Part shown: positions 34,632 to 44,282 of the stretch, one piece after another
Layout: every line of letters starts with the position of its first letter
Numbering within the stretch: the stretch's first letter is position 1
Translations under genes and position numbers: made by a program
NCBI RefSeq assembly: GCF_900102075.1
Contig: NZ_FNAV01000004.1
Location: 186,001-250,000, forward strand
From: Salipiger thiooxidans
Lineage (GTDB): Bacteria; Pseudomonadota; Alphaproteobacteria; Rhodobacterales; Rhodobacteraceae
Direction of reading: 5' to 3'
Length of the DNA stretch: 64,000 nucleotides
The notes under the pieces: generated by a model
The model's input: the letters and a program-made list of their open reading frames with translations, nothing else
Database searches by the model: none
Told to the model about the DNA's origin: nothing

Positions 34632-36986
34632 ATGCTATTCGGACTAGATGGCGTAGAGATCGGCCTGATCATCGTCTTTCTCACGCTCTTCTCCGCCATT
34701 CTCTCGGGCTTCCCGGTGGCCTTCGCCATCGGCGGCGCGGGGGTGATCTCCTTCGCTATCATCGCGGCGCTCGACAGCGCGGGCCTGCTGATCCACCAGG
34801 CCATCGACACCGGGTCCGACGCCTACCGGGCGCTGGTCGCCACCGGCATCCGCGAGGACACGATCTCGATCTTCCGCTACCCGGACCTGCCACGCTACGC
34901 GATGCCGGTCTTCGACCGCGGCTGGGAAGTGGCGCTCGACCGCAACGTGTCGTTCATCGTGAACCGCGTGAACGAGCGCGTCATCGCCGGCGCCAGCATC
35001 GAGACGCTGCTCGCGGTGCTGATGTTCGTGATGATGGGCATCGTGCTCGAGCGTTCCAAGATCGCCGACGACCTGCTCAAGACCATGGCACGGGTGTTCG
35101 GGCCCCTTCCGGGCGGTCTCGCGGTGTCGATCGTGGTCGTGGGCGCGTTCCTCGCGGCCTCCACCGGCATCGTCGGTGCGACCGTGGTGACCATGGGCCT
35201 GCTGGCGCTGCCCACCATGCTGCGCAACAACTACTCGCCCGAGCTGGCGACGGGCGTCATCGCGGCCTCGGGCACGCTGGGACAGATCATCCCGCCGTCC
35301 ATCGTCATAGTGCTTCTGGGCACGCTGGCGGGCGATCTCTACTCGACCGCGCAGGAAGCCCGCGCGCAGTCGCTGGGCTGCACCGACGCGCTGACCTACC
35401 TGGGCGAGCCCGCGGTGGTCTCGGTCGGCACGCTGTTCCAGGCGGCGCTGCTGCCCGGCATCCTGCTGGCGATGCTCTACGGCGCCTATGCCTTCGGCTT
35501 CGCCATGCTCAACCCGCACAAGGCACCGCCGGTGCGCAGCGAGGGCAGCATGGGCGAGCCGGTGACCAGGGGCGAGGCCTTCACCTGGTACCTCGGCGTG
35601 CCGCTGCTGCTGATCGTGGCGACCATCGGCTTCGGCCAGCTCAACATGGTGGGCTCGCAGTCGACCGTGGTCTCGAGCTTCTCGGAAGGCGGCCAGACCG
35701 CCAGCCTGCGCACCAATGTCGGCGCCGACTGCAAGGCCGCGATGATCGAGCTGCACGGCCAGTCCGCATGGGATGTCGCCGTGGCCCAGCAGGCCGAGAT
35801 CGACGCCGCGGGCGGGGTCGAGGCCGGTCATCGCCTCTCCGAGGACGAGATCAACGCCGCTGTCGCCAGCAAGATCGCCAACGCCGCGCCGATCGGCACC
35901 GGCATCGCGATCATCACGGTGATGCTCGGCATCACGCTGTCCTGGGGCAGGGCGGTCTCGCCCGCGTCCGAGCCGCGGCCGCTCCTGATCGGAGCCGCGG
36001 GGCTGGCGCTGGGTCTGGTGGTGGACATCCTCTTCATCGGGCCGCTCACCACCCCGGGCCTGACCGTGGTGCTGATGGCGGTGCCATGGGTGCTGGCGCT
36101 CTACGGCGCGACGCACGCGGCGAAGCGCCTTGCCGGGAACGAGCTCATCCGGGTGGTCTTCCCGCCGCTGGTGCTGATCGTCGCGGTGCTGGGCTCGATC
36201 CTCGGCGGCATCACCAACCCGACGCCCGCCGCGGCGCTGGGGGCGGCCGGTGCCATCATGCTCGCGGCCTACCGCAAGCTGCGCGAGACCGACCGTTCGC
36301 CGCGGATCATCCTGTGGTCGACCTTCGCGGTGGTCATCATGATCCTCGTGGGCGTGAACTTCGACCTCCGGGTGAACTCGGGCAGCGCCGGGGTCGAGAG
36401 CTGGATTGCCTTCCTCGTGGCGCAGGCGGCCTATCTCTACGCGCTCTTCGGCATGTTCTTCGCCTGCTGGGTGCTGCTCAAGGCGGGGGTGCTCGGACCG
36501 GCGGTGCGGGAAACGGCGAAGGTGACGTCGATGGTGTTCACCATCCTCGTGGCCTCGCAGCTGCTGAACCTCGTGGTGATCTCCTTCGGGGGCGAGCACT
36601 ACATCCAGCAGTTCCTCCAGAGCTTCGACAACGAGCACAAGGTCTTCCTCGTGGTCATGCTGGTGCTCTTCATCCTCGGCTTCGTGCTGGACTTTCTCGA
36701 GATCATCTACATCGTCGTGCCGATCGTCGGTCCGGTGATCTACGGGGGCTCCTTCGATCCGAAGTGGGTGACCATCATGATCGCGGTGAACCTGCAGACC
36801 TCGTTCCTGACGCCCCCCTTCGGCTTCGCGCTGTTCTACCTGCGCGGCGTGGCACCGGCCTCGGTGACCACCGGGCACATCTACCGGGGCGTGATCCCCT
36901 TCGTGCTGATCCAGGTCGCGGGCCTTGCGCTGCTGTGGTTCGCACCGGGCATCGTGACCATCGTGCCGGACCTGATCCCCAAGTAA
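34632..36986 (+). CDS. TRAP transporter large permease (DctM family), extended form
   Basis: 784 residues against about 430 for typical DctM. The two halves of DctM are recognisable: N-terminal GFPVAFAIGGAGV and AASTGIVGATVVTMGLLALPTMLRNNYSPELATGVIAASGTLGQIIPPS; C-terminal GFVLDFLEIIYIVVPIVGPV and LQTSFLTPPFGFALFYLRG. Between them is a soluble stretch (about residues 340-415, rich in Ala/Asp/Glu) plus extra hydrophobic segments. It is the ion-coupled uptake channel of the operon. GAGGACCCACC precedes the start. Such long forms go with the TakP-like binding proteins. Confidence 0.9.
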   Translation: MLFGLDGVEIGLIIVFLTLFSAILSGFPVAFAIGGAGVISFAIIAALDSAGLLIHQAIDTGSDAYRALVATGIREDTISIFRYPDLPRYAMPVFDRGWEVALDRNVSFIVNRVNERVIAGASIETLLAVLMFVMMGIVLERSKIADDLLKTMARVFGPLPGGLAVSIVVVGAFLAASTGIVGATVVTMGLLALPTMLRNNYSPELATGVIAASGTLGQIIPPSIVIVLLGTLAGDLYSTAQEARAQSLGCTDALTYLGEPAVVSVGTLFQAALLPGILLAMLYGAYAFGFAMLNPHKAPPVRSEGSMGEPVTRGEAFTWYLGVPLLLIVATIGFGQLNMVGSQSTVVSSFSEGGQTASLRTNVGADCKAAMIELHGQSAWDVAVAQQAEIDAAGGVEAGHRLSEDEINAAVASKIANAAPIGTGIAIITVMLGITLSWGRAVSPASEPRPLLIGAAGLALGLVVDILFIGPLTTPGLTVVLMAVPWVLALYGATHAAKRLAGNELIRVVFPPLVLIVAVLGSILGGITNPTPAAALGAAGAIMLAAYRKLRETDRSPRIILWSTFAVVIMILVGVNFDLRVNSGSAGVESWIAFLVAQAAYLYALFGMFFACWVLLKAGVLGPAVRETAKVTSMVFTILVASQLLNLVVISFGGEHYIQQFLQSFDNEHKVFLVVMLVLFILGFVLDFLEIIYIVVPIVGPVIYGGSFDPKWVTIMIAVNLQTSFLTPPFGFALFYLRGVAPASVTTGHIYRGVIPFVLIQVAGLALLWFAPGIVTIVPDLIPK

Positions 36987-37009
36987 GCTCTGGGGAGCGG
37001 CAAGAGACG

Positions 37010-37037
37010 GGAGCGGGCCCTCGGGTCCGCTCCTTTC
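37010..37037 (+). terminator. Terminator of the TRAP operon
   Basis: GGAGCGG (37010-37016) pairs with CCGCTCC (37027-37033), with an inner CCC/GGG, followed by TTTCGTTT. Confidence 0.8.
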
Positions 37038-37160
37038 GTTTCGGGGGGGCCGGTGGCCGGTGCCTCTGCCGCGTTTGCCGGGCGGCGTCGGGGCGCGTAC
37101 ACCTGACGAACCGGCCGGGAGCCGGTCTCGGAGGAAAGTGCTTTGGGGCAGGGGCGCAAT

Positions 37161-38216
37161 ATGACCGGCGGCAGGTTTGAGACCATCGTGATCGGCGACG
37201 GCATCGCCGGCTGGGCCGCCGCCGCCGTGCTGGCGCGGCGCGGGCAGGCGGTGGCGTTGCTGGGCCGTGCGCAGGGGCTGCCCCCGGTGGGGGAGTACCT
37301 GCCGCCCGAGGGTGTGGCGGCACTGGCGGCGCTGGGGCTTGATGGGGTGCTGCGCAGTGCCGGGCACCGGCCATCGCGCGGAACCGTCTCGATCTGGGGA
37401 AGCGACGCGCCCCTGCGGCGCGACGTGCTGATGCAGCCGGGAGGCCGGGCGTTCTGCGTAGACCGGCGCGCGCTCGAGGCGGATCTCAGGCGCATGGCGG
37501 GGGAGGCGGGCGCGGTGGCGCAGACCCTCTCCGTGCCGCCGGTGGTCACGGGAGGTGCCGGCGCCTGGCAGCTCGACCTGCGCGGCGCCGGGCGCGCGCC
37601 GCTGACCGCCCGCTTCCTGATCGACGCCACGGGGCGCGCGGCATGGCTGGCGCGGGCGTTGCAGGCCCGGGTGACGCGGTGCGACGATCTCACCGCGCTG
37701 GCGTTGTTCTGGTCCGGGGCGCCCACCGAGGACGCCGCGCTGCGCTCCAAGAGCCTGCCGGACGGCTGGTGCTACGCCGCGCCGCTGTCGGGGGAGCGGC
37801 TGGTCACTGTTTTCCTGACCCCTGCCGCCGTGCTGCCCAGAGGCGCCGCCGCGCGCAGGGCGCTGGCGTTGGAGCGCATCTCCGAGAGCCGCCTCGCGGG
37901 CGGGCTCTGCGCAGGGGCCCGGCCCGAGGGCTTCCGCGCCATGGCGGCGGGGAGCCAGGTCACCGAGCCGAGTTGCGGCCCCGGCTGGGCGGCCATCGGC
38001 GACGCGGCCATGGCGTTTGATCCGCTGGCCTCGGCGGGCATGACCAAGGCGCTGCTCGACATCCGCGAGACCGTGGGCGACCGGGCGCTTGCGCCCGACG
38101 CACTAGCCGAGCGCCGCCGCGACCGCTTTGCCGCCTACCTTGCCGAACTCAGCGACGTCTACGCCGCCGAGCAGCGCTTTGGCGGACCGTTCTGGACGCC
38201 GCGTCAGTCGTCGTAG
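37161..38216 (+). CDS. LodB/QhpG-like flavoprotein (CTQ-maturation candidate)
   Basis: 351 residues. A Rossmann FAD motif opens the protein (IVIGDGIAGWAAAAVLARRG), followed by GEYLPPEG near residue 50 as in tryptophan-halogenase-like flavoproteins, and the second FAD motif AAIGDAAMAFDPLASAGMTKAL near residue 275. LodB and QhpG are flavin monooxygenases that hydroxylate a tryptophan in a partner protein so that cysteine tryptophylquinone can form. The gene ends 13 bases inside the 3' end of a convergent LodA-like gene, which is strong context for that role. ATG 37161 is preferred to an upstream TTG. Confidence 0.72.
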   Translation: MTGGRFETIVIGDGIAGWAAAAVLARRGQAVALLGRAQGLPPVGEYLPPEGVAALAALGLDGVLRSAGHRPSRGTVSIWGSDAPLRRDVLMQPGGRAFCVDRRALEADLRRMAGEAGAVAQTLSVPPVVTGGAGAWQLDLRGAGRAPLTARFLIDATGRAAWLARALQARVTRCDDLTALALFWSGAPTEDAALRSKSLPDGWCYAAPLSGERLVTVFLTPAAVLPRGAAARRALALERISESRLAGGLCAGARPEGFRAMAAGSQVTEPSCGPGWAAIGDAAMAFDPLASAGMTKALLDIRETVGDRALAPDALAERRRDRFAAYLAELSDVYAAEQRFGGPFWTPRQSS

Positions 38217-40153
38217 GTGCCGGCCAGCGTATGGCCCATGCGGGCCATGCGGAAGAACTCGCGCTGCGCGTGGCTCTGCCAGCCGGCCTCCTGCGCGGCG
38301 CGATCCTCGGGCGTGTCGGGTGCCTCGCGCGCGAGGCCCGCCATCGCCGCGACGCCCCGCAGCTTCAGACCGGCGGTCGCGGCCCCGAGGACCTCGACAT
38401 ACAGCTCGGAGGGCACGCCCGGCAGGTCGTCGGGGCCCGGACGGCGCTCGACCACGCCCATTTCGCCGAAATGCGACACCATCGAGGTCATCTCGTCGGG
38501 CCCGTATTTCTGCAGCGGGACGTACCAGTTGCGCCGCTCGGCAAAGGCCTGCTGGCGGGTCGCTTCGTCGAGTGTGCCGTCCATGACCCGCGCGTAATTT
38601 TCGGCGGTCAGAACGTGGTTCGGCACCCGCACCGGCCAGAAGGTCGGCAGGTTCGGATCGTAGCCGCGGTTGTAGCCTGACCGGCAACTCGCAGTATCCG
38701 CCTGCCACGGCAGCGCCATCCAGCGCGTCAGCCCGCCCGGCACCTGCGCGTTCAGCGGCCCGTCGGGCCCGAGGGCGCGGGCGCTGGTGAGCATGGCGCC
38801 GTAATCGGGCTCGGGGTCGTTGGCGGGACGGGCGCGGATCCGAAACGGCTTCTCCCAGATCGAGATATGGCGCAGGGGCCACGTCACCTCGATACCCGGG
38901 TGGAACGCGTCGGCGAGGCAGAAGTGCAGCGCCGCGCGGTCGAGCATCGAGGGCTGGTCGGCCAGCGCCACCGCGTCGATGCTGTCGGGCCCGGGCGCGA
39001 CCTGTCCCCAATCCTCGATGAAGTCGCCGGCCACCCATTTCTGCATCCGCGCCGCCGCCGCGGGCCAGAGCGGCAGGCCGTTGGCCGGCAGCGACGGCGG
39101 GAAGGTGCCGAAGGCGTCGCCGTAGAGCCATGGCCAGCTGCGAAGCGCCACGCCGTCGCCCGAGACCGGGCGGAAGGCGTTGAAGATGTCGCGCCGCAAG
39201 CCGCGGTAGACATCCGCCGCGCCGTGCTTCCGGGCCAGCCGGTCGATCAGCGCGGGATCGTGGAAATCCATTGGGCCGCCTGCGCCGAAATAGGCTGCAA
39301 AGCCCTGGTTCACCCATTGATGCGCGGTCATGCGCTCGAGCAACGGGTAGATGTCGCGGGTGAACGAAACCTCGGCGGCGGGCGGCGTCCAGCCGGCCTC
39401 TTCCCAGAGCTCGGTCAGCAGGTCCAGCATGGTACGCCAGCCGATCAGGTCGCGGGCGTAGTTCGGCGGCGCGATCACCACCCAGGCGCCCTCGCAGGGC
39501 ACGGTGTTGCCGTCGATGCGGACGCTCGCGGTCACCGGCCCGTCGCAGGCCTCGTCGTACCAGCCGGTGGCGTTGCCGAAGGCATCCGTTTCGGAGGGGA
39601 CATAGACCGGCAGCCCGGTCGGAGAGCCCGAGACGCCGAGCCCGCTCAGCACCCGCAGCCGCCCCGTGGCTTCGGTGTGCAGCTCGCCGATCATCGCGTC
39701 GGCGGACTGGCCCTGGTAGGTGAAGGTGCCGTGCAGCTCCTGCTCGGCACCCGTGCCGGTGACCGAGTGCGGCCCCGGGTCGATGGTCAGGTCGGAGCGC
39801 TGGTCCACCGGGTAGTCCGGGTTGCGCCGCTCGAGCGAGAAATCCGCCGCCGCGGGCAGGTCCATGGCGGCGCGCAGCTTGTACCAGCTGGCCTTGCGGG
39901 CGGCGAGATGCGCGGTCCAGGTGATTTCGGCGTTGGCGGGGGTCAGTTCGGCCACCACGTTGCCTTCGCCGTCATAGCCGTAGATGCGGAACTCCGCCGC
40001 CTCGCGCTTCAGCAGGCCATCTGCATGAGAGCTGCCGGGCGCCGCGGGGGTGGGCGACATCACCTGAGGCCCGACGTAATACTCCCGTGCATTGCCCATG
40101 CGGGCGATCCCGAGGCCGGGGTGGATGGCGGCGCGTACGATGGGTCCGGGCAT
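38204..40153 (-). CDS. LodA/GoxA-like CTQ-dependent amino-acid oxidase
   Basis: 649 residues, starting IVRAAIHPGLGIARMGNAREYYVGP, the N-terminal signature of the LodA family. LodA (lysine epsilon-oxidase) and GoxA (glycine oxidase) use a cysteine tryptophylquinone cofactor and release H2O2; several are antibacterial. The cofactor cysteine candidate is Cys490 in LPWQADTASCRSGYN; the tryptophan partner is probably Trp543 in FAERRNWYVPLQ, about the expected distance downstream. No signal peptide is seen, as in other members. Substrate cannot be told from sequence. Its 3' end overlaps the LodB-like gene; upstream, divergent, is a metalloprotease operon. Confidence 0.82.
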   Translation of the reverse strand: MPGPIVRAAIHPGLGIARMGNAREYYVGPQVMSPTPAAPGSSHADGLLKREAAEFRIYGYDGEGNVVAELTPANAEITWTAHLAARKASWYKLRAAMDLPAAADFSLERRNPDYPVDQRSDLTIDPGPHSVTGTGAEQELHGTFTYQGQSADAMIGELHTEATGRLRVLSGLGVSGSPTGLPVYVPSETDAFGNATGWYDEACDGPVTASVRIDGNTVPCEGAWVVIAPPNYARDLIGWRTMLDLLTELWEEAGWTPPAAEVSFTRDIYPLLERMTAHQWVNQGFAAYFGAGGPMDFHDPALIDRLARKHGAADVYRGLRRDIFNAFRPVSGDGVALRSWPWLYGDAFGTFPPSLPANGLPLWPAAAARMQKWVAGDFIEDWGQVAPGPDSIDAVALADQPSMLDRAALHFCLADAFHPGIEVTWPLRHISIWEKPFRIRARPANDPEPDYGAMLTSARALGPDGPLNAQVPGGLTRWMALPWQADTASCRSGYNRGYDPNLPTFWPVRVPNHVLTAENYARVMDGTLDEATRQQAFAERRNWYVPLQKYGPDEMTSMVSHFGEMGVVERRPGPDDLPGVPSELYVEVLGAATAGLKLRGVAAMAGLAREAPDTPEDRAAQEAGWQSHAQREFFRMARMGHTLAGTYDD

Positions 40154-40476
40154 GTCAGGCTCCTCCTTCTGACGGGGTCATGGATGGTGATGGCGGCGGG
40201 CGTGGCCTCTGGTGGGGTGTGCGCCGCAGGGGGTATCCTGTGTCCGGCAGGCGGCCCGGGTGCAGGGTCGGACAAGGGTCGGACAGGGCGCCGGGACAGG
40301 GGGGATATGGTCTCCGCAGACATTCACTCCCCCTCTGTCGGCGTGGCCTGACGACGTGCGATACCTGACTTTGCGCAATTATTGGTTGAATGGAGTCCGG
40401 TATTCAGACACCATGGTGTTATCGGTGCCGTAGCGTCAAGAATTTCATTGCGCATTTGATCTGGGGGATTTCGGCT
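40154..40476. other. Divergent spacer between CTQ oxidase and metalloprotease genes (323 bp)
   Basis: No gene. The half near the protease gene (40350-40470) is AT-rich compared with surroundings and holds a perfect 12-bp palindrome ACACCATGGTGT (40408-40419). The half near the oxidase contains a short near-direct repeat GGGTCGGACA (about 40266-40287). Promoters for both directions probably lie here. Confidence 0.55.
40408..40419. promoter_or_regulatory. Palindrome in the CTQ-oxidase/metalloprotease spacer
   Basis: ACACCATGGTGT, a perfect 12-bp palindrome 57 bases before the metalloprotease ATG. A candidate shared operator, unproven. Confidence 0.35.
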
Positions 40477-41727
40477 ATGGATGACCATTCCGACGACCGC
40501 GGCGGGATGCGCCGTGATGCCGCCACCGACAGCCCGCCGACCCGCTATGACCGCGCGTCCGTCCGACGACCGCGCGCCGCGCAATTTTCCGGTGCCGCGA
40601 CTGGTGTCGGGGTGCTGGGTATCGAGATCTGCCAGTCGGTTCAGGCGCTTGACAACTCCGTGCCGCTGGTGGCCCTGAAACCGACCATGGTGCGGGTCTA
40701 TCTCGACGAGACCACCGTCGCGGCGAGCCTGCGACTGCGCGGCGAGCTCTGTCTCAGGCAGTCCGCCACCGGTCCCGCGACCTATCTCGCCGGGATCAAC
40801 GAGCTGAAACTCGATCCCGCTGACGCCCTGGCGCTCGACGACAAGCGCGAGAACCTGAAGGCCTCGCTGAACTTCCAGCTGCCCGAGACCGCGCTTCAGG
40901 CCGGCCCGCTGATCGTCGAGCTCAACCGGCTCATCCAGATCGGCGGGGCGGACCAGCCCTTTACCGGCGCGGCCCCGGTCGCGGTCGAGCTGACCGCGGG
41001 GCCTCCGATCCGGGTGCGCTGCATCGGCCTGCGCTACGCAGATCCGCAGACCGGTGGCGTGCACGTGCCCGACGCCATCCACTTCGACTATTTCCGGTCC
41101 TACCTGTCTCGGGCCTACCCGGTGCCGGCGGTGGAGTGGTCGCAGATCGTGGTCGACGCGAATTTCGCCCCGCCGTTTCAGGGCGCGACGGCGGTGCTCG
41201 CCAACGCGCAGATCGCGGCGATCCGGAACTCCGAGATCAACTCGGGCACCGATCCCCGAACCCATTACTACGGGCTCGTCGACGACGCGAACGGCCAGCA
41301 CTTCATGCGGGGGCGCGCTTCGGGCATTCCCGCAGGGCCGCAGCCGGACACGGTGGCCTCGGGGCCCTGTGGCATTCCGGCGGGCTTCGCAGGCGATCAG
41401 GACCAGTCCTATGCCGACTGGTACGGCGCACACGAGCTTGGTCATACTTACGGGCGCTTTCATCCCGGTTTTCCGCCCGGGGCGCAGGATGCCTCGGACG
41501 CGACTTTCCCATATGCCAACGGGCAGCTGTCGAACGCCGACCGGAAATACGTGGGCTACGACGTCGGCGATCCGCAGCTCGGGTTAGAGCCCAAGGTGAT
41601 GAACGGCACCACCCATCACGACGTCATGACCTACGCGGACAGGCAATGGGTTTCGGCGTATACCTTCGAGGCCATTCGTCAGCGCCTTGCGGACGAGGAC
41701 GCGCAGTTCGCGCCTCCGGTCGCGTAG
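40477..41727 (+). CDS. Putative zinc metalloprotease (M66/metzincin-like)
   Basis: 416 residues. An N-terminal beta-rich part contains VGVLGIEICQSVQ...VPLVALKPTMVRVYLDE, the kind of 'KPTxxRVY' domain found before M66-like peptidases. The catalytic motif HELGHTYGRFHPGF near residue 317 gives HExxHxxxxxH with three zinc histidines, and HHDVMTYADRQWVSAYTF near residue 390 looks like the Met-turn and following segment of StcE-type enzymes. No signal peptide or membrane helix is visible; export would need another route. It begins a two-gene unit and is divergent from the CTQ oxidase. Family call is by motif only. Confidence 0.65.
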   Translation: MDDHSDDRGGMRRDAATDSPPTRYDRASVRRPRAAQFSGAATGVGVLGIEICQSVQALDNSVPLVALKPTMVRVYLDETTVAASLRLRGELCLRQSATGPATYLAGINELKLDPADALALDDKRENLKASLNFQLPETALQAGPLIVELNRLIQIGGADQPFTGAAPVAVELTAGPPIRVRCIGLRYADPQTGGVHVPDAIHFDYFRSYLSRAYPVPAVEWSQIVVDANFAPPFQGATAVLANAQIAAIRNSEINSGTDPRTHYYGLVDDANGQHFMRGRASGIPAGPQPDTVASGPCGIPAGFAGDQDQSYADWYGAHELGHTYGRFHPGFPPGAQDASDATFPYANGQLSNADRKYVGYDVGDPQLGLEPKVMNGTTHHDVMTYADRQWVSAYTFEAIRQRLADEDAQFAPPVA

Positions 41728-41746
41728 GGCAGTGGAGATCCGTCAC

Positions 41747-42382
41747 ATGAACACCACCGCAGACACACGATTTGCCCATGTCGTGGCGACCGTCGATCCG
41801 ACCGAACACAGCGGTCAGATCCTTTACGTCAACCCGTCGAACATCCAGTCGAACCTGAGCCCGCTCGGGGGGCTCGATCGGGGCGACATCGCCCTCGTTC
41901 TGAGGAGTTCGGATGGAGCCGAAATCAGACGGATCATCCCCGAGGTGCGCTACGATGCCTGCAGCAGCCCCGAGGATCCGCACACCGGCCTGATCCAGCA
42001 GGACGTCGAGCTGCCCGAGGGGCTGTCCTCGCTCGAACTGGTGCAGGGCGAAGAGGTCCTGGACGTCTTCGAGGCGACGCCGCCCGAGGAGGCGCCCGCG
42101 CTGGCCGATGGCATGACGCTCGAGGCGCCGCTCGCCGGCGCCAGGCACAGGCGCAGCGGCTTCAGCGGGCTGGTGGAGGCGCAGGCCGGGGTGACATACC
42201 TGATCGAGGCGCGCCCGGATAATCAGGGCCCCTGGAGCACGCTCTTCATCGGTCGCAAGACGCCGGATTTCGAGATCGACAAGAACCAGTTTCCCGGCGC
42301 CAGAAAGCTGAGCGTTCGCGTGGTCCAGAACGCGGGCGTCACCCGCCGCGTGATCGACGAACGCGAGATCGAGCTGGAGTGA
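41747..42382 (+). CDS. Uncharacterised beta-rich partner of the metalloprotease
   Basis: 211 residues without signal peptide or membrane helix. It has GQILYVNPSNIQSNLSPL near residue 23, GDIALVLRSSDGAEIRRIIPEV near 45, and a C-terminal half (residues 135-210) of alternating strands (VTYLIEARPDN, RKLSVRVVQNAG) that suggests an immunoglobulin-like beta sandwich. The middle motif resembles the C-terminal domain of some M66-like proteases, so this may be a split-off domain. It starts 19 bases after the protease stop with GGAG upstream, so the two are cotranscribed. Function unknown. Confidence 0.6.
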   Translation: MNTTADTRFAHVVATVDPTEHSGQILYVNPSNIQSNLSPLGGLDRGDIALVLRSSDGAEIRRIIPEVRYDACSSPEDPHTGLIQQDVELPEGLSSLELVQGEEVLDVFEATPPEEAPALADGMTLEAPLAGARHRRSGFSGLVEAQAGVTYLIEARPDNQGPWSTLFIGRKTPDFEIDKNQFPGARKLSVRVVQNAGVTRRVIDEREIELE

Positions 42383-42426
42383 TAGCCGGCGGCCAGCGCC
42401 TGGCCTGAGAGCGGGTGCGCAAACGA

Positions 42427-42454
42427 AACAGGCGCGCCCCGGGGCACGCCTGTT
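42427..42454 (-). terminator. Terminator of edd
   Basis: AACAGGCG-C-GCC and GGC-A-CGCCTGTT form a 12-bp stem with one mismatch around a CCGG loop; on the minus strand TTTCGTTTGC follows. It may also serve the plus-strand gene ending at 42382. Confidence 0.7.
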
Positions 42455-42468
42455 CGGGGTGTCCCGAA
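42453..42468. repeat. TTCGGG-N4-CCCGAA inverted repeat at the 3' side of edd
   Basis: TTCGGG-gtgt-CCCGAA, perfect 6+6, just after the edd stop. It resembles three inverted repeats upstream of edd (44469, 44658, 44897). Confidence 0.5.
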
Positions 42469-42476
42469 ATAGTCCG

Positions 42477-44282
42477 TCAGACCACCACGGCCGCGCCGTT
42501 CGAGGCAAGGCCGACGTTCTGGCGGAAGGCCTCGAAGAGCTCGCGGCCGACGCCGTGGCCGTTGTCGGCAAGGTCCGCGCTCACCGGCGTGCGGCTGTCG
42601 AAATCGGGCGCGAGACAGGTGAGCGTGCCGTTGGTGGCGTCGACGCGCACCATGTCGCCGTCGCGAAGCTTGGCGAGCGGGCCGCCGTTCGCGGCCTCGG
42701 GGCAGACGTGGATCGCCGCGGGGACCTTGCCGCTGGCGCCGGACATGCGGCCATCGGTGACCAGCGCCACCTTCAGGCCGCGGTCCTGCAGAACCGCCAG
42801 TGTGGGCGTCAGCGAGTGCAGCTCGGGCATGCCATTGGCGCTCGGGCCCTGGAAGCGTACGACGACGACCGTGTCCTCGGTAAACTCGCCCGCCTTGAAG
42901 GCGTTCTTGACCGCCGCCTGGTCCTGGAAAACCCTGGCCTTTGCTTCGATGACATGGCGCGAGGGATCGACCGCAGAGACCTTCATGATGCCGTGGCCAA
43001 GGTTGCCGATGAGCTGCTTCAGCCCACCGGTCTTCTGGAACGGATCCGAGGCAGGGCGCAGGATCTTGTCGTTCTGGCTGACCCGCGCGGCCTCCTCGTA
43101 GCTCACCGCTCCGTCGCGAAGCTTGGGCTCGCGGGTGTAGAGCGACAACCCGTCCCCGGCGACGGTGGTGACGTCCTCGTGCAGGAGGCCTGCGTCGAGC
43201 AGTTCGCCGATCATGTATTGCAGCCCGCCCGCCGCGTGGAAGTGGTTCACGTCGGCGAGGCCGTTGGGATAGACCTTGGCCATCTGCGGCACGACCGAGG
43301 AGATCGCGTCGAAATCCTCGAGCGTGAGCTCGATCCCGGCAGCGCGTGCCATGGCGGGCAGGTGCAGCACGAGGTTGGTCGAGCCGCCCGTTGCCATCAG
43401 CCCGACGATGCCGTTCACGAAGGCCTTGGCGTCGAGGATGTCGCAGACCGGGCGGTAGTCGTTGCCGAGCTTGGTGATCTCGAGCGCGCGGGTGGTGCCG
43501 GCCTCGGTCAGCGCGTCGCGCAGGGGCGTGTTGGGATTCACGAAGCTCGCGCCAGGCAGGTGCAGGCCCATGAGCTCCATCAGCATCTGGTTGGTGTTGG
43601 CGGTGCCGTAGAAGGTGCAGGTGCCCGGCCCGTGGTACGAGGCCATCTCGGCCTCCATCAGCTTGTCGCGTCCGATCTCGCCGGTGGCGAACTGCTGGCG
43701 CACCTTGGATTTCTCGTCGTTGGGAAGACCCGAAGTCATCGGTCCTGCAGGCAGGAAGATGCCGGGAATGTAGCCGAAGGTGGCGGCGGCGATGATCAGC
43801 CCCGGCACGATCTTGTCGCAGACGCCGAGATAAACCGCCGCGTCGAAGGTGTTGTGCGAGAGCGAGACCCCGGCGGCCAGCGCGATCACGTCGCGCGAGA
43901 AGAGCGAAAGCTCCATTCCCACCTGGCCTTGGGTGACGCCGTCGCACATCGCCGGGACGCCGCCCGCCACCTGCGCGGTGCCGCCTGCGGCGCGCGCGGC
44001 GCTGCGGATGATCTCGGGGAAACGCTCGAAGGGCTGATGGGCCGAGAGCATGTCGTTGTAGGCGGACACGATGCCGAGGTTCGGTACCCGCCCCTCGGCC
44101 AGCGCCTGCTGGTCGACGCCCATCGCCGCGTAGGCGTGGGCCTGGTTGCCGCAGGTCAGGTGGCCCCGGCGGGGGCCCTCCTCGGCGGCGCGACGCATGC
44201 GGTCGAGATAGGTGGTGCGGCGGGCCTCGGAGCGGGCCTCAATGGTCTCGGTGACCTTGGCGATGGTGGCGTCGAGCGGCAT
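42477..44282 (-). CDS. edd: Phosphogluconate dehydratase
   Basis: 601 residues of the IlvD/Edd family. It dehydrates 6-phosphogluconate to KDPG in the Entner-Doudoroff pathway. Family marks are [55 protein letters not shown], the cluster cysteine in [20 protein letters not shown], and [19 protein letters not shown] near the C-terminus. Length and N-terminus fit Edd rather than IlvD. The KDPG aldolase gene (eda) is not adjacent. A terminator lies after it and a long structured spacer precedes it. Confidence 0.95.

Follow-up and report, generated by a model that had tools for sequence, protein, structure and literature searches.

The DNA analyzed here is a window of 64,000 nucleotides from Salipiger thiooxidans (contig NZ_FNAV01000004.1, positions 186,001 to 250,000), and all window positions below are those of this whole stretch. 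Between 37143 and 42382 it harbors four open genes, whose products are a flavoprotein of the LodB type, a LodA-family oxidase, a zinc protease of the metzincin type, and a beta protein with two domains. Comparison with other loci, which were fetched and labeled L004 to L094, tentatively suggests, at a confidence that falls slightly short of probable, that the four genes are a conserved, mobile set coupling a cysteine tryptophylquinone (CTQ) oxidase with a two-part metalloprotease, and that the protease and its partner (the protease pair) are a client of the oxidase and not its maturase. A preliminary description of this DNA had named the same content, a LodA-family protein, a LodB/QhpG-type flavoprotein, a divergent zinc metalloprotease, and a beta partner, and all four are indeed present and open. 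Its proposal that they form one functional unit is supported in part, by the conserved co-occurrence of the genes, by an empty site in relatives, and by the presence of the pair beside two LodA lineages. The genes and the protease motif are arranged as follows:

37143..38216, plus strand: LodB/GoxB/QhpG-type flavoprotein by profile matches; first ATG at 37161, alternative start TTG at 37143
38204..40153, minus strand: LodA-family CTQ oxidase of 649 amino acids; Pfam LodA_N and LodA_C over cut-off
40154..40476, no strand: intergenic stretch from which lodA and the protease gene are read in opposite directions, assuming a protease start at 40477
40477..41727, plus strand: metzincin-type zinc metalloprotease of 416 amino acids; frame open from 40390; N-terminal beta-sandwich and catalytic domain
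41431..41463, plus strand: zinc-binding motif HELGHTYGRFH (HExxHxxGxxH), read from the sequence
41747..42382, plus strand: partner with two beta-sandwich domains in the structure model; starts 19 bases after the protease gene

The lodB gene is convergent with lodA and overlaps it tail to tail by 13 bases, so the two do not form an operon in the window. The protease and partner genes are divergent from lodA and are probably co-transcribed, as the 19-base gap suggests. By our own reading, the TTG at 37143, which has a GGAGG 8 bases upstream, is as likely a lodB start as the ATG at 37161, and a protease start at 40477 is likelier than one at 40390, where the frame opens. No sigma-70-like match was found in window 36950-42600.

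Co-occurrence of the protease pair with lodA

Genomes were scanned for the protease with two peptide patterns that were built from the window protein and three lodA-linked plasmid proteases; lodA itself was not sought, and open reading frames in GC-rich loci were called mechanically. The scan yielded 25 loci. In 12 of them (L010-L020 and L024) the partner has a reading frame of its own, and lodA-like DNA is present at every one of the 12. Ten of these (L010-L018 and L024) contain all four genes, L019 shows the start of lodA at a contig end that cuts the locus, and L020 from Streptomyces retains lodA and lodB in broken pieces. Near their 3′ ends, the protease frame of L016 and the lodB frame of L012 look shifted. 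The expectation that protease homologues lie next to lodA is thus borne out for every genome locus of the split form and fails for the remaining 13 loci, mostly longer homologues, in whose fetched flanks no lodA was found, several contigs being short (L026, L027, L028, L030). Weak flavoprotein matches to the lodB profile occur without lodA in L023, L025, and L008.

Nine plasmid records match the protease, and six of them were fetched. L004, L005, and L007 carry all four genes, L008 and L009 are distant protease homologues, and L006 is taken up below with the points that weigh against the proposal. By record title, the complete four-gene set occurs in Alpha-, Beta-, and Gammaproteobacteria, Nitrospirota, and Chloroflexota (the last three as metagenome-assembled contigs); the Actinomycetota case is decayed. 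In the four-gene loci, lodA-lodB and the protease pair are directly adjacent in divergent, convergent, and co-directional orders, and several loci lie on plasmids or near transposase genes. The set is rare: among 198 genomes of the family, 20 of the genus, and 385 of the class, each number including the window genome, no other genome yielded the protease at the limits used. There was no match among phage records for LodA or the protease, among viral contigs for the protease profile, or in PADLOC. PHROGs holds one LodA-like and one LodB-like family, and the phage search with LodA did not reveal their source.

LodA loci without an intact pair

LodA is commoner than the protease and occurs in 12 of the 385 class genomes, including the window's own. 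Twelve lodA loci were tested for the pair, drawn from nine of the 11 other class genomes (G461 and G554 were left out), two genus relatives, and the second lodA of the window genome; three of them (L072-L074) belong to one genus. The 12 loci yielded neither the protease nor the partner. LodA also matches 27 plasmid records, of which eight served for the same test, three were used as short regions for the tryptophan question discussed below, and three were already in the set. None of the eight further plasmid loci contains an intact protease-partner pair. Across both sets, all 20 further lodA loci lack one, a few of these loci being broken themselves. In L084 and L085 (two Mycetohabitans strains), pieces of the partner lie next to open lodA and lodB genes; in L086 (Sinorhizobium medicae), lodA is in pieces and a 48-residue protease-like match is present; L088 has a truncated lodA. 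Because no intact pair was found at the 20 loci, the evidence leans toward a one-way dependence, in which the pair depends on LodA more than LodA depends on the pair.

Probable exchange of the oxidase block and insertion into the genome

In the protease tree, the window protein is sister to that of L010 with a support of 100/100, and in both loci the pair is divergent from lodA. The LodAs of the two loci are only 34% identical and fall into separate clades. For LodA and LodB, the window proteins group instead as sisters of those from Mesorhizobium onobrychidis (L089, plasmid pOM4, 8995-12046; support 92/91 for LodA and 98/96 for LodB), where lodA and lodB are convergent and overlapping as in the window and where no protease or partner was found. 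A reversed lodB is thus not confined to one genome and may characterize a lineage. L016 is a second case of a window-type LodA beside the pair, together with L019 as judged from its fragment. The protease pair is thus found beside two LodA lineages. The simplest reading of the trees is that an oxidase block was exchanged next to a protease pair; alternatively, independent transfers into the same place may have occurred.

The set also appears to have entered this genome as one piece:

37009..37034, plus strand: intrinsic-terminator-like hairpin 3′ of the upstream TRAP-transporter-type genes; the insertion lies just beyond it
37045..42476, no strand: inserted segment, ends approximate, missing from the matching place in 6 of 19 genus relatives

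The segment is flanked upstream by tripartite ATP-independent periplasmic (TRAP)-transporter-type genes, the last of which ends at 36986, and downstream by a convergent dehydratase-type gene (42477-44282); these genes were named by reading the sequence and not by search. In 6 of 19 genus relatives, including the three that are most similar over the TRAP permease gene, the TRAP permease and dehydratase-type genes are neighbors with about 260-330 bases between them, which makes the block, about 5.4 kb long, look like a single insertion. In the other 13 relatives, the dehydratase-type gene was not found within the 1.5 kb that was read. The hairpin is weak when taken alone (one found against a mean of 1.9 in shuffled sequence), and a similar one was seen by eye at the empty sites. 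A functional link with the TRAP transporter genes was considered and ruled out: the permease is present in 20 of 20 genus genomes and the protease in one, so these genes are neighbors through insertion.

The LodA-like oxidase and its cofactor residues

The window LodA matches Pfam LodA_N (E 3.3e-61) and LodA_C (E 9.5e-37), both above the curated cut-offs. Against NCBIfam it scores 344.2 bits for GoxA (NF038173, cut-off 750) and 139.9 bits for LodA, the lysine 6-oxidase (NF038172, cut-off 600), and is thus closer to GoxA by score and far below both equivalog cut-offs. The positions that carry the cofactor are as follows:

38684..38686, minus strand: codon of Cys490, aligned with LodA Cys516
38636..38638, minus strand: codon of Trp506, the likely CTQ tryptophan, aligned with LodA Trp581

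The assignment of Cys490 as the CTQ cysteine, made in the preliminary description, stands, as all 20 aligned LodA-like proteins have Cys in its column. The crosslink partner named there, Trp543, has to be corrected. In LodA, the second Trp of SYWWPPQ is Trp581, which aligns with window Trp506 (LodA numbering was counted by hand from an alignment of LodA, 3weu, with Pseudoalteromonas LodA). The Trp506 column is Trp in all 20 proteins and also in Pseudoalteromonas LodA. The Trp543 column is Trp in 19 of 20; in a further alignment the position is Tyr in Pseudoalteromonas LodA and L093 and Ser in the second LodA of the window genome, and the alignment with LodA rules this residue out. Because Trp506 aligns with Trp581 and is invariant and Trp543 is variable, the crosslink is most likely Cys490-Trp506.

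Asp486, four residues ahead of the Cys, is likewise conserved in 20 of 20 and corresponds to LodA Asp512, a conserved Asp near the cofactor (PMC7876137). His418 is conserved in 19 of 20 LodA-like proteins, and LodA has Cys448 there in the hand-counted numbering. The Tyr-His loop of GoxA (PlGoxA Tyr766-His767) and a Tat-type N-terminus are present in the GoxA-like L078-L080 and L094 and not in the window LodA. As the loop is missing, a glycine oxidase activity is unlikely. The LodA_N match begins at residue 11 with no N-terminal extension before the domain, so there is no long leader to cut off; a hydrophobicity check also found no strongly hydrophobic N-terminus.

Further LodAs differ in length and context. 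The window genome holds a second, distant lodA-lodB pair (L083, G000 C33, about 39000-42300) without the protease. An N-terminal part of the long LodAs L075-L077 has a counterpart in a separate gene of L086. Catalase-type domains in long LodAs are described in a 2015 survey (PMC4417212), and no Pfam catalase-type domain was found in L075, L076, or the separate L086 gene.

As an observation of its own, a C-terminal motif [FY]xxGE[IV] ends the LodAs of the other clade in 12 of 12 cassettes (L004, L005, L007, L010-L015, L017, L018, L024) and could be a sorting or recognition tail. It also occurs in L084-L086 and L088, which have no intact pair, and is absent from the window LodA and L016. As a link to the pair it was therefore rejected for the window.

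The flavoprotein

The gene that adjoins lodA encodes a relative of LodB, GoxB, and QhpG that, by its profile scores, belongs to none of the three equivalogs. In NCBIfam it scores best against GoxB (E 1.1e-53, 182.6 bits, cut-off 400), QhpG (E 3e-43, 148.3 bits, cut-off 240), and LodB (E 6.2e-31, 107.8 bits, cut-off 400), all under cut-off; it exceeds the Pfam cut-off for Trp_halogenase. An adjoining lodB-type gene, one of the traits by which membership of the LodA family was judged, is thus present at 37143-38216 in convergent orientation.

The protease and its partner

The protease carries the Met-turn DVMTY as well as the zinc motif HELGHTYGRFH. Across 24 aligned protease sequences, the three His, the catalytic Glu, and the Met-turn Met never vary, and the Gly of the zinc motif is Gly in 16 of them. 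No Pfam or NCBIfam family scores over its cut-off. The match to Pfam M66 (PF10462; E 0.017, 14.5 bits) stays below the gathering score of 20.6, which rules out membership of Peptidase M66, and a profile search at E 10 found no sequence relative in the Protein Data Bank (PDB). The predicted structure (predicted local distance difference test, pLDDT, 87.4; predicted template modeling score, pTM, 0.85) begins with a beta-sandwich and continues into a catalytic part, in which a helix carries the zinc motif. Its top Foldseek matches in the PDB are fragilysins at about 8-13% identity and template modeling (TM) scores of 0.27-0.29 by query, intermingled with unrelated beta-sandwich proteins that presumably fit the N-terminal part. 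On the HExxHxxGxxH motif, the Met-turn, and a predicted metzincin-like fold that is numerically weak, the protease is classed as a metzincin.

The partner is predicted to be all beta (pLDDT 79.3, pTM 0.57), with fibronectin-III-type matches at TM scores of about 0.3. In other bacteria, metzincin and beta-sandwich partner have their counterpart in one longer protein, several of which have a signal-like N-terminus. The partner domain is C-terminal to the protease in a single protein in 10 of the 13 homologues without lodA, and the split form accompanies lodA-lodB. A strongly hydrophobic N-terminal stretch occurs in 7 of 15 long frames versus 1 of 15 cassette proteases, the exception being L018 when its first possible start is used.

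Proposed mechanism and alternative explanations

By analogy with the family, LodB would help to oxidize Trp506 of LodA, which would crosslink to Cys490 to give CTQ. The finished LodA would then oxidize an amine or amino acid to the aldehyde or keto acid with release of ammonia and H2O2. CTQ formation with LodB and H2O2 production by LodA are described at the level of the family (PMC4417212, PMC7876137, PMC4699246). The one-way dependence and the exchange of the oxidase block suggest that the protease pair would work with or after the oxidase, as its client. It may cut target proteins that are damaged by the oxidase or its H2O2, or it may free amino acids or peptides that the oxidase uses. Of the roles suggested in the preliminary description, an action of the pair on targets together with H2O2 is favored. 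If the proteins exit the cell, they would do so by lysis or a nonclassical route. A more specific form of the client proposal is that LodA oxidizes protein amines or floods a target with H2O2 and that the metzincin and its beta-sandwich adaptor recognize and cut the modified proteins; stated in this detail, it is decidedly improbable.

Processing of the oxidase by the protease had been the other suggestion. Here, CTQ biogenesis or release would include a dedicated cytoplasmic step in which the protease and partner cut LodA or LodB, comparable to the action of QhpE. The genes are tightly linked, all four window proteins lack a strongly hydrophobic N-terminus, which would allow a shared compartment, and the qhp CTQ operon has its own dedicated protease (PMC7876137). 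QhpE, however, is a subtilisin and thus of another protease class, and the LodA_N match from residue 11 leaves no long leader for removal. LodA and LodB occur without an intact pair at the 20 further lodA loci, the partner has decayed in Mycetohabitans with lodA-lodB kept, and close kin of the protease adjoin LodAs that share merely the 34% identity noted above. Maturation is therefore doubtful, and the 20 loci, the Mycetohabitans remnants, and the presence of the pair beside two LodA lineages favor a client over a maturase. A role in feeding, in which the pair frees amino acids or peptides that LodA oxidizes for nitrogen and carbon or for H2O2, with a dye-decolorizing (DyP) peroxidase then using the H2O2 in some relatives, is likewise unlikely. 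It draws on DyP-type peroxidase genes in the fetched flanks of L004, L005, L006, L013, L015, and L017 (by clustering, with Pfam on the L005 copy), on CBM96 or Big_7 domains, as often found on surface proteins, in four of eight long protease homologues scanned, and on the TRAP-transporter-type genes upstream in the window (own reading). Yet 14 of 15 cassette proteases lack a signal-like N-terminus, the TRAP permease is a neighbor through insertion, and no DyP homologue was found within window 30001-53000. Finally, lodA-lodB and the pair could have no functional link and travel jointly because they share mobile elements or insertion hot spots. The location of several loci on plasmids or near transposase genes would fit this, as would the varying lodA-lodB lineage beside the pair. 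The two halves are nevertheless directly adjacent in the four-gene loci in all three orders, and hitchhiking would not be expected to preserve adjacency when one half is exchanged, which makes a mere association very unlikely.

Several points weigh against the client proposal itself. All four proteases behind the search patterns adjoin lodA, so the scan favors close kin of lodA-linked proteases. L004, L012, and L024 are near copies, so the loci outnumber the independent events; L013, L014, and L017 are contigs from metagenome assemblies; and the L020 partner may be a frame-shifted fusion. L006 has a protease interrupted by an insertion sequence and no lodA, with the partner intact, which speaks against a strict dependence on LodA. 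In the LodB tree, L016 sits on a long branch with LodBs of the other clade, and a clean swap of lodA together with lodB therefore does not describe the exchange at this locus. In Mycetohabitans, the pair may have decayed only recently. The lack of a strongly hydrophobic or signal-like N-terminus on all four window proteins (hydrophobicity check) is a poor fit with an extracellular target, and the conserved linkage would also fit a maturation role, given the dedicated protease in the qhp operon (PMC7876137).

Relation to known systems

With LodA-LodB and GoxA-GoxB of Marinomonas and Pseudoalteromonas, the window shares Pfam LodA_N/LodA_C, the cofactor Cys and Trp, the Asp, and an adjoining flavoprotein gene. 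It differs in its scores below the equivalog cut-offs, in His418 in place of Cys448, in the missing GoxA Tyr-His loop, in the convergent lodB, and in the protease pair. The locus on pOM4 of M. onobrychidis (L089) has the sister LodA and LodB with the same convergent overlap and differs in that no protease or partner was found. In Citreicella sp. SE45, the lodA-like gene CSE45_2361 has an unannotated, reversed lodB downstream, and the genome holds two lodA copies, of groups IB and IIIB (PMC4417212). Reversed lodB and two lodA copies are also found in the window and its genome, and CSE45_2361 may be the window locus, to judge from the layout alone. The main text of PMC4417212 has no word starting with protease, peptidase, or metallo.

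The maturation of quinohemoprotein amine dehydrogenase (QHNDH) by QhpD, QhpE, and QhpG likewise combines a CTQ enzyme with a flavoprotein and a protease in one operon (PMC7876137). In that system a subtilisin, QhpE, takes off a leader of 28 residues (PMC7876137), whereas the window has a metzincin with a beta partner and a LodA without a leader. No radical S-adenosylmethionine (SAM) protein of a QhpD-like cluster was found in window 30001-53000. With Peptidase M66 and fragilysin-type metzincins, the window protease shares the HExxHxxGxxH motif and the Met-turn, although it is under the M66 cut-off. In one Pseudoalteromonas genome, a lodA-lodB pair and pseudoalterin-type metalloproteases are separate genes (PMC10079959). 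By titles and abstract starts, and with few subscription papers covered, no paper was recognized as pairing LodA with a protease gene. The novelty claimed for the four-gene set thus holds for the protease pair in the literature searched and not for lodA with a reversed lodB, which was noted in 2015 for Citreicella sp. SE45.

Neighboring systems at related loci

A second, apparently split LodA-like system lies beside the four-gene set in L004 (1-4895), L007 (1-5441), L010 (12065-16797), L012, L013 (3961-8922), L015, and L017, and by the set or its remains in L018 (cut) and in L084 and L085 (partly). One of its proteins matches the LodA N-terminal part (hhalign probability 99.1%). Another contains PGxLTQSLCSPWxxDFxxCxCxYWA, which aligns with the LodA CTQ loop in a short match with a probability of 38%. 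In L010, this second protein matches Pfam LodA_C at E 0.007, below cut-off, and has a ferritin-like domain, as do, by alignment, those of L007, L013, and L017. The system is accompanied by a QhpD-like radical SAM protein in L010 (268 bits, cut-off 453) and by a QhpG over cut-off in L004. By these matches, it resembles a LodA in which machinery of the QHNDH type matures the cofactor-bearing piece; a limited search found no literature on such a split LodA-like system.

In L005 (4694-5829), L006, and L084 and L085 (Mycetohabitans endofungorum), the genes upstream of the lodA operon, the split-LodA module, and an S53 peptidase gene include one for a GH108 muramidase and one for a small protein that has hydrophobic stretches and looks holin-like by eye. 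They could provide a lysis-type release route for leaderless enzymes. A further protein family recurs near lodA in L004 (5076-7895), L005 (6000-7130), L007 (6051-8774), L013, L015, L017, L018 (16258-19021), L081 (2250-5489), and L087 (17826-19286); it sometimes adjoins a DyP-type peroxidase, and its scanned members match no Pfam or NCBIfam model.

Implications for the LodA family

In the literature seen, LodA-type enzymes have so far been treated as an oxidase with its maturase, to which a protease pair found across several phyla is now added. A pair that is tied to two LodA lineages is a first handle on the targets of uncharacterized LodAs, and it points to a metzincin family that has a defined partner and no Pfam or NCBIfam name. 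The corrected CTQ tryptophan matters for mass-spectrometry tests of the enzyme. If LodA oxidizes its targets and the pair cuts them, this would be, to our knowledge, the first protease dedicated to a tryptophylquinone enzyme as its client, and the set would be an exchangeable module among distant bacteria.

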